From contig CACZXH010000005.1 of assembly GCA_902785065.1 (NCBI GenBank), forward strand, positions 141,108 to 205,107: a stretch of DNA of 64,000 nucleotides. Reading direction: 5' to 3'. Of this stretch, positions 28,275-29,600 are shown piece after piece. Position 1 is the first letter of the stretch; each line of letters begins with the position of its first letter. The stretch is from an uncultured Bacteroidia bacterium (GTDB lineage: Bacteria; Bacteroidota; Bacteroidia; Bacteroidales; UBA932). The translations under genes and the position numbers were made by a program. The notes under the pieces were generated by a model. That model had not been told where the DNA came from. It worked only from the letters and a program-made list of their open reading frames with translations, and did not search any database.

Positions 28275-29600
28275 ATGTCTTTCGCCGATTTCATATTGCA
28301 ACACGAGGGGGACGATCCCGTCCGCCTTCTCCTGGCCCGTGACAAGTACCCGGAGGTCGATATCGACCTGGCTGTCACGACGTTGGAAGTGCGGCGCAAG
28401 CTCCGGACGAAAGTCCCCGAGTGGTATGCGGTTCCGTCGCTGATTTATCCCTTCCGGCTCTCCGGAGAGCAATGCAGTTCGAGTGAAACCGCCAGGTATA
28501 AGGCAAGGGTTTGCGGGAGCAGTTTGGTCCCCGAACCGTCGCTTCGCGACCCCTCCCATAAATGGGCCCCTCCCTCTTATGCGGCCGAGGGTGGCCACAG
28601 GTTCGGGGACCAAACCGCTCCCGCAAATGAGCGTTTGAAAATTGCTGATTTGACGGGTGGTATGGGGGTCGATGCGTGGGCGTTTGCGCAGGTGGCGGAG
28701 GAAGTGCTTTATAATGAGATGCAGGTTGAATTGGCGCGGGCGACGGAGTTGAATTTCAGGGAGTTGGGGGTGGAGAACGTGCGGTTTCGGAACTGCCGGG
28801 TGGAGCCGGGGAAGGTTGCGGAGGTGCTGGACGGGTTTCGGCCTGATGTCATTTTCCTGGATCCGGCACGCAGGGCCGGGGACGGGCGGAAGGTGTTCCT
28901 GATCGAGGAGTGCCAGCCGGATGTGCTGGGGCTGCTTCCGGAACTGTTCGAGGCGAGCCGGTACGTGCTGCTGAAACTCTCGCCGATGGCGGACATTACC
29001 ATGGCCTGCAAGCGGCTGGGAGCGCACGTGAAAGAGGTGCACGTCGTGGCGGCGGGAGGGGAGTGCAAGGAACTCCTGTTCCTGCTGGACCGCGACTGGG
29101 AAGGGGCCCCTGCGACCTTCATCGTCGAAGGCGGCGCCGTGATGGAGATTCCCGGTCAGGCCGGGAATGACGGTCCCTCCCTTGTCATTTCGACCGGAGC
29201 GAAGCGGAGTGGAGAAATCTGGCTCTTCGAACCCGGGAAGTCCCTCCTCAAGGCCGGGGCGTTCGACCTGCCGTGCGAACGGTTCGGCTTGACCAAGCTG
29301 GGGCAGCATACGCATCTGTATGTGGGTGAGGCCATACCGGAGGCGTTGCGGCCGTTCGGGAAGGTGTTCGAAATCCTGGAGGTGCTGCCCTTGAACAACC
29401 GGACGATGAAGGAGGCGGGAAGGCGGTGGCCGCAGGCCGAGGTGACGGCCCGGAATGTGCCCATGACCTCCGACCTGCTGCGGAAGAAGCTCGGCTGCGC
29501 CTCGGGCGGGGACATCCACCTGTTCGGCGTCCGGATCGAGGCGGCCGCGGAAGCGGGTAACTACTTGATTGTAACTAAGAAACAATATGGAACAGATTGA
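28275..29600 (+). CDS. Class I SAM methyltransferase-like protein (THUMP-like) carrying two in-frame repeat inserts
   Basis: A 441-aa protein of the Bacteroidota family annotated as class I SAM-dependent methyltransferase with a THUMP-like C-terminal domain. The N-terminus (LARDKYPEVDIDLAVTTLEV, SGEQCSSSETARYKA), the SAM-binding IADLTGGMGVDAWAF near residue 122, and DVIFLDPARR are typical. The RNA substrate is unknown. Two stretches look foreign: residues about 78-122 come from a palindromic element, and residues about 290-315 (PGQAGNDGPSLVISTGAKRS) from a dispersed repeat. Both keep the frame open. The start is ATG 28275 (MSFADF) or ATG 28269, because the -7 box covers anything earlier. The 3' end overlaps the next gene by 14 nt. 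Confidence 0.82.
   Translation: MSFADFILQHEGDDPVRLLLARDKYPEVDIDLAVTTLEVRRKLRTKVPEWYAVPSLIYPFRLSGEQCSSSETARYKARVCGSSLVPEPSLRDPSHKWAPPSYAAEGGHRFGDQTAPANERLKIADLTGGMGVDAWAFAQVAEEVLYNEMQVELARATELNFRELGVENVRFRNCRVEPGKVAEVLDGFRPDVIFLDPARRAGDGRKVFLIEECQPDVLGLLPELFEASRYVLLKLSPMADITMACKRLGAHVKEVHVVAAGGECKELLFLLDRDWEGAPATFIVEGGAVMEIPGQAGNDGPSLVISTGAKRSGEIWLFEPGKSLLKAGAFDLPCERFGLTKLGQHTHLYVGEAIPEALRPFGKVFEILEVLPLNNRTMKEAGRRWPQAEVTARNVPMTSDLLRKKLGCASGGDIHLFGVRIEAAAEAGNYLIVTKKQYGTD
28511..28628. repeat. Palindromic element inside a coding region, 27-bp inverted-repeat arms
   Basis: The left arm 28511-28537 and right arm 28602-28628 are inverted copies matching at 26 of 27 positions. They enclose 64 nt that contain a smaller palindrome, GTCGCTTCGCGAC (28539-28551). 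The element is read through in frame and lies just before the SAM-binding motif. No second copy was noticed in the window. Confidence 0.9.
29147..29220. repeat. Dispersed repeat inside the same coding region
   Basis: The first half is the TTCCCGG/CCGGGAA hairpin also seen at 20072-20096. The second half (CTTGTCATTTCGACC, then GAGCGAAGCGGAGTGGAGAAATCT) is related to 26433-26482. It is translated in frame as part of the methyltransferase-like protein. Confidence 0.85.

Follow-up and report, generated by a model that had tools for sequence, protein, structure and literature searches.

Translated palindromic elements are best known from Rickettsia, and the question raised by this locus is what a long palindrome inside a protein gene of a Bacteroidales bacterium represents and how its two arms have stayed complementary. 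The window, i.e. the whole 64,000-nucleotide stretch of DNA that was analysed, contained a methyltransferase-like gene on the forward strand (28254 bp–29600 bp in the ORF list, 448 amino acids) which matched the PG_1098 ferredoxin-like (PF22013, E 4e-14) and THUMP-like (PF18096, E 2e-13) domains of Pfam. A repeat search located two 28-nt arms in this gene (28510 bp–28537 bp and 28600 bp–28627 bp, + strand) that were complementary at 27 of 28 positions and 62 nt apart, giving an element with a total length of 118 bp. The maximum for near-perfect inverted repeats in the window was 28, and ten mononucleotide shuffles reached 15 at most. The preliminary description had given 27-bp arms, alike at 26 of 27 positions around a 64-nt centre; the repeat is real, with positions off by one or two bases. 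Its reading of the palindrome as translated was confirmed, as the whole palindrome lies in frame within the open reading frame.

An alignment with relatives showed that the residues of the insert were missing in eight proteins with a short linker (L096, L100–L104, L108 and L107), as the preliminary description had suggested might be found. The linker of the window protein was, by count, about 28–37 residues longer than five of these short ones, not the 45 residues first proposed. The remaining relatives at the methyltransferase site carried the element or other repeats; in L097, L098, L099 and L109 the loop contained tandem or other repeats, e.g. PESPTCPPKHPVSVDK units. In named assemblies, the relatives were nearly all from uncultured Bacteroidales or Bacteroidia, many of them from the ruminant gut or rumen, with Cytophagaceae and Spirosoma accounting for two of the 27 loci. 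An AlphaFold2 model of the window protein, built from 17 sequences (mean pLDDT 80.7), had its longest run of pLDDT below 50 at residues 91–124, which is the insert, between a helix (77–89) and a strand (129–132). The element in the window gene is thus predicted by the model to encode an unstructured loop. Further low-pLDDT residues were 1–5, 302–309 and 315–319. A second, unrelated dispersed repeat of the GAGCGAAGCGGAGTGGAGAAATC type was also translated in this gene (29160 bp–29230 bp, + strand), in a region that was likewise poorly modelled (residues 302–309 and 315–319); it matched the source genome 49 times at E≤1, itself included.

The window palindrome is one copy of a dispersed repeat family that occurs mostly within a single Bacteroidales family. 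The core motif GGGCCCCTCCCTCT occurred exactly 15 times in the source genome and between 2 and 12 times in each of six near relatives, whereas the reversed motif, used as a control, occurred 0 times in these seven genomes. BLASTN of the 136-bp block against the source genome returned 23 matches, some being fragments or the block itself, and a covariance model gave at least 22 hits. At least 39 of the 61 genomes in the genus sample (source genome counted) had a match at E≤0.01. With the covariance model, at least 47 of 149 genomes in the family sample, from 11 of 25 genera, and at least 5 of 295 in the order sample were positive, the last being the source genome, one more genome of the same family and one from each of three other families. 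These counts are lower bounds because the filters were strict. BLASTN against plasmids and phages gave no match to the element, and IMG/VR contained 0 exact pattern matches. Copies elsewhere in the source genome and in relatives, for which the preliminary description had proposed a search, are therefore present. The search by arm sequence that it had put forward would, on the other hand, have failed, since none of the 15 source-genome copies has arms that match well elsewhere in the genome; it is the 62-nt centre that is conserved.

To judge from open frames, nine of the 15 exact-motif copies interrupt protein genes without breaking the reading frame. The hosts were the window gene and genes encoding a TrmB-like protein, a radical-SAM protein, an ABC ATPase (its ORF truncated at the end of the locus), a family-2 glycosyltransferase, a YggS-like protein (Ala_racemase_N), MurB, RibF (Flavokinase, FAD_syn) and a protein with APH and RapZ C-terminal domains; domains are those of Pfam, and the names TrmB, YggS and RibF are our reading of the hits. 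The other six copies were placed as intergenic from the ORF maps alone, and at least two of these overlap the final codons of a gene. Copies in other genes and in intergenic DNA, both anticipated by the preliminary description, thus exist. Among 66 non-redundant copies from the sampled genomes, 209 of 396 frames were open compared with 134 in shuffles, so that open frames are enriched, yet not universal. The in-frame element may be tolerated owing to its short length and to the several reading frames that are frequently open in it, and in the window gene also because it forms a loop that is predicted to be unstructured. Unrelated repeats of the GTCATTCCGAGCGAAGCGAAGGAATCT kind lay, apparently in frame, at L083, L142, L144 and L227, where other species carry the element, and several repeat families are apparently accepted by the same protein loops. 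None of the 66 copies had a target-site duplication of at least 4 bp. Direct repeats of 3 bp immediately outside the arms were present in seven of the 66, compared with 1.5 in shuffles, and their letters differed.

Most copies shared the ends AAACC and GGTTT; in the core between these, constant linkers connected three hairpins (H1, H2 and H3). In the window the 62-nt core (28538 bp–28599 bp) matched the first copy of L002 (G000:C6) at every base. It was bordered by AACC (28534 bp–28537 bp) at the inner end of the left arm and GGTT (28600 bp–28603 bp) at that of the right arm; both ends were common to copies, and the outer part of the left arm was site-specific and complementary to that of the right arm. 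H1 (GTCGC-TTC-GCGAC, 28538 bp–28550 bp) existed as several types among copies, and H2 (CCCAT-AA-ATGGG, 28555 bp–28566 bp) was the most variable in length and sequence with its pairing retained. H3, or P5 (TGCGGCC-GAGGGT-GGCCACA, 28580 bp–28599 bp), bore in its loop the strand GAGGG (28587 bp–28591 bp), which was complementary to the linker CCCTC (28572 bp–28576 bp); we refer to this pairing as P4. All of these features are on the + strand. Alignment A1 comprised 60 of the 66 non-redundant copies, one having been dropped by the script and five odd copies (L015, L062, L127, L134 and L197) excluded by hand. In A1, 87.6% of the cells of this structure were paired, compared with 72.6% in shuffles and 35–50% when the structure was slid, and 359 cells were altered on both sides compared with 114 in shuffles. 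Pairing was 79 and 83% in the arms, 95% in H3, 99.7% in P4, 98.3% in H2 and 74.5% in H1, the types of which are poorly aligned in A1. Four of the seven H3 pairs were changed on both sides. P4 varied in few rows of A1; over a larger set of copies the loop/linker combinations, given for the strand opposite the core and excluding unrelated parses, were CCCTC/GAGGG in 85 cases, CCCGT/ACGGG in 3, CCCGC/GCGGG in 2 and CCCAT/ATGGG in 0. In a set of 44 hits of the covariance model in wider relatives, the same four variants were perfectly paired in 28, 7, 1 and 5 cases respectively, P4 was imperfect in L285 and L288, and one hit was unparsed. The copies with P4 variants are not independent because several are orthologous or sister copies. 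The core therefore has covarying helices, and P4 together with H3 implies a pseudoknot or two alternative states; we do not claim that both form simultaneously because the loops are tight.

A fold of this kind could be a functional structured RNA or a single-stranded-DNA binding site, in which case the fold would be selected and the arms would covary since the stem is needed. The helices, P4 among them, covary around conserved unpaired linkers, and these linkers are retained in orthologous TrmB copies. It is because of this conservation at old sites that selection on a structured RNA is the main rival to the explanation favoured below, although we consider it unlikely. No Rfam family reached its gathering score across eight loci, the weak hits to the window stretch being led by one of 19.5 bits (E = 1, gathering score 69.1), and the copies lie in unrelated genes and have been deleted in several sister species. 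Six of the TrmB-locus copies (L248–L250 and L252–L254, from six species) had altered linkers GAGGGGGGACC in common and, by eye, form a site-bound subfamily.

Analysis of the arms revealed that it is mainly the core that is common to copies, the arms being mostly site-specific. Arm identity was 0.94 within a copy and 0.32 between copies for the 66 non-redundant copies, which were retained from 92 after removal of near-identical arms and arms shorter than 16 nt. A set of 47 copies, two of them without detectable arms, gave arm complementarities of 0.90 and 0.28 respectively. Beyond about 5 bp (AAACC/GGTTT) the arms were not common to most copies, and there was a weak consensus of GGG near positions 17–19. 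In the source genome, L001 and L002 had identical 62-nt cores and unrelated arms. In genome G014, six of the 11 copies seen had cores that were identical at 64–69 of 69 positions and arms that matched at 2–8 of 18; the comparison covered these six, the cores of the other copies being more divergent. By eye, L281 and L286 of G744 had the core and an inner GGAATAAC in common and differed in their outer arms. The two adjacent copies of L183 had the same arms, and several copies in each of G714 and G404 also had the same arms, so that the whole unit spread there.

These last copies fit an element that spreads whole, together with its arms, as a MITE or as a REP or REPIN moved by a RAYT-type transposase, with old arms having diverged and cores kept alike by selection or gene conversion. 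The TrmB copies, which are old and have fully diverged arms, are also as expected if this were so. The unrelated arms around near-identical cores in the six G014 copies, and around identical cores in L001 and L002, argue against it, and as a general account we find it quite improbable.

Mismatches between left and right arms, over 1554 positions, were A>G 39, C>T 12, T>G 6, G>A 6, T>C 6 and others 9. They were one-sided, the left arm having A against the equivalent of G in the right arm in 39 of 78 cases. On the strand opposite the core, A>G and C>T together (51) are G.U/G.T-type mismatches, compared with 12 of the reverse type, which is a further point for a selected RNA or single-stranded-DNA fold. 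No A>G mismatch was present at stem positions 1–8, i.e. within 8 bp of the core. A-to-G copying errors were considered and rejected as the origin of the bias (39 A>G against 12 C>T). Relatives suggest left-arm G-to-A changes in ribF and at one trmB position; at the other trmB mismatch position they suggest a change in the right arm. Copying of the arms from elsewhere in the genome was likewise rejected. A search of the source genome with 15 left arms found no outside source: all hits down to the 29th (E 0.006) were the elements' own arms and the next best hit had E 0.15.

Two loci suggest where arm sequence may come from. At L004 the outer left arm was the end of a FUR-family gene ending in CPDCR; the Pfam match (PF01475, E 1.7e-7) spans residues 37–133 of 161 and so falls short of the very end. 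The right arm mirrored the left, including a TGC/TGT difference in a Cys codon in L173 and L226. At L215 (G394:C22) the outer right arm encoded MALLL, which aligned to LAFLL of the neighbouring gene in the source genome, where the matching segment had no mirrored copy upstream. The element of G394, the nearest genome, is located where a gene begins, and the source-genome copy lies approximately 90 bp upstream. As both the core and the arms of L215 differed from those of the source-genome copy, L006, this is possibly an independent insertion or a case of rebuilt arms. L004 and L215 suggest that arms are built, or rebuilt, from the native DNA of one side, although neither is a clean pair of filled and empty sites. 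The idea that insertion makes an inverted copy of the left flank was fitted exactly by trmB locus L143 (G148), but a deletion is the better reading of L143, because the more distant G068 has the full element (L231) and L143 has a left-arm change in common with the source-genome copy; L143 therefore no longer counts as evidence for that idea. The window-gene identity was 75% for G068 and 89% for G148. The deletion in L143 possibly occurred between GAAAA repeats.

Orthologous sites were compared to follow how the element changes in place. At trmB the element was present at one position in several distant congeners, with differing arms. Across 14 orthologous pairs (295 positions), some with a member in common and with two planned pairs absent, there were 30 compensated differences and 12 in one arm only, compared with 4.9 compensated differences expected if the arms changed independently. 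The arms therefore drift jointly at orthologous sites. Additionally, the core was reversed relative to its flanks at seven of 13 comparable sites. Five of 11 were identified by script (the radical-SAM gene, L206; ABC, L205; GT2, L169; L009, in L163; and L014, in L170–L172) and two by eye (L004, in L226, and the methyltransferase site, L094); the trmB core was not reversed. At six of the seven sites, L094 being the exception, the reversed core had retained its telling H1 or H2, and inversion in place is therefore favoured. The occurrence of both orientations at one site counts against a selected RNA or binding site. The yggS core of the source genome has an H1 type that differs from those of G003 and G216; some sites may therefore represent independent insertions and not drift.

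Elements were also lost by deletion. The products were short hairpin feet (L140, L174, L178 and L116), a partial left arm (L141, L145, L146, L220 and L143) or the GAGGGT of the arm joined to that of H3 (L159 and L224). No young insertion facing a clean empty site was found, in comparisons that included a wider but weak search of 29 loci, with two candidates scored per genome. Short hairpins without a core, at the orthologous positions L140, L174, L178, L116/L090, L095, L221 and L222, could alternatively be the target, with the core inserting at the tip of a pre-existing hairpin whose stem becomes the outer arms; the similar cores seen inside unrelated arms would fit this. Relatives carry the element at trmB, at L004 and at the methyltransferase site, however, and the short hairpins can therefore be remnants of deletion. 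Moreover, the arms of L004 and L215 are partly coding and are unlikely to have been a ready-made palindrome, and the source genome had no palindrome at the L215 position. We consider insertion into existing hairpins improbable.

The explanation that we favour, and to which we give about an even prospect of being correct, is a family of non-autonomous mobile hairpins in which template switching makes, repairs and flips the palindrome during replication. The mobile unit would be the folded core of approximately 60–90 nt with its short complementary ends, AAACC...GGTTT, landing either between genes or in frame within protein genes. The long arms would mostly not belong to the spreading unit and would be built at each site when DNA polymerase switches templates at the hairpin, a switching that would then keep them complementary. 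The same switching would flip the core in place, and bypass of the hairpin would delete it. That a putative enzyme mobilises the core, and that template switching both makes the arms and keeps them paired, is what we infer from the comparisons above. A mobile core with replication-built arms is preferred because reports on template switching describe homogenised arms with an inverted spacer, for yeast, in parts of PMC8604942, and the creation and maintenance of hairpins in parts of PMC8794818. Several points count against it. The linkers are conserved at old sites (TrmB), for which template switching alone is insufficient; no clean young insertion was found in which the making of arms could be seen directly; and the appearance of site-specific arms could also result from gene conversion of cores. 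The common arms in G714, G404 and L183, the differing H1 type at yggS, the FUR match that stops short of the gene end and the lack of target-site duplications of at least 4 bp in the 66 copies weigh against it as well. A variant in which the core makes its own arms, its ends snapping back and priming the copying of adjacent DNA before template switching takes over maintenance and flipping, seems to us rather doubtful.

MITEs such as ERIC, BOX and RUP form hairpins, and MITEs have terminal repeats common to copies together with target-site duplications. REPs and REPINs are short dispersed palindromes that are possibly moved as single-stranded hairpins. In the parts of PMC10969869 concerned, ERIC, BOX and RUP are described as small, dispersed and non-autonomous elements that sometimes lie within genes; unlike MITEs, most copies of the present family lack long terminal inverted repeats in common, G714 and G404 being the exceptions. 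REPs are described in parts of PMC3733652 as having a GTAG or CGTC tag at one end. At the hairpin foot neither tag was found, GTAG occurring in 0 of 66 copies and CGTC in 55 of 66 but inside the core. Template-switch (quasipalindrome) mutation likewise yields homogenised arms and an inverted spacer, according to parts of PMC8604942, but it is a process of mutation, whereas a mobile element is what is proposed here, as a dispersed family on which that process would act. The perfect inverted repeats within protein genes of Nematomorpha, as reported in parts of PMC6649704, resemble the element in lying inside coding sequence, but are mitochondrial.

A close likeness is to the Rickettsia palindromic elements, which are described in parts of PMC10969869 as palindromes of approximately 150 bp in unrelated genes, many being in frame and translated. 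The element is comparable in size (118 bp) and dispersal (15 exact-motif copies and 22 model hits), and in being inserted in frame into unrelated protein genes in nine of 15 copies. The Rickettsia elements differ in the phylum of their host and, as far as their description allows comparison, the present element differs from them in its site-specific arms, common core, loop–linker helix and reversed cores. The Rickettsia-like translated palindromic element envisaged by the preliminary description is supported by the copies elsewhere and by the residues missing in relatives; by analogy, the element would work like a Rickettsia palindromic element, and membership is not claimed. Among the titles and abstract openings listed by searches of one open-access library, none showed a comparable element in Bacteroidales.

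With a second lineage whose copies are resolved site by site across dozens of sampled genomes, it becomes possible to compare how proteins tolerate such elements. Whether stems are kept paired by selection or by template switching is a question that has been raised for RNA genes in parts of PMC8794818, and a conserved core next to site-specific arms that drift together provides a natural test of the two. It also serves as a caution that covariation of the arms is, by itself, no proof of a functional RNA.
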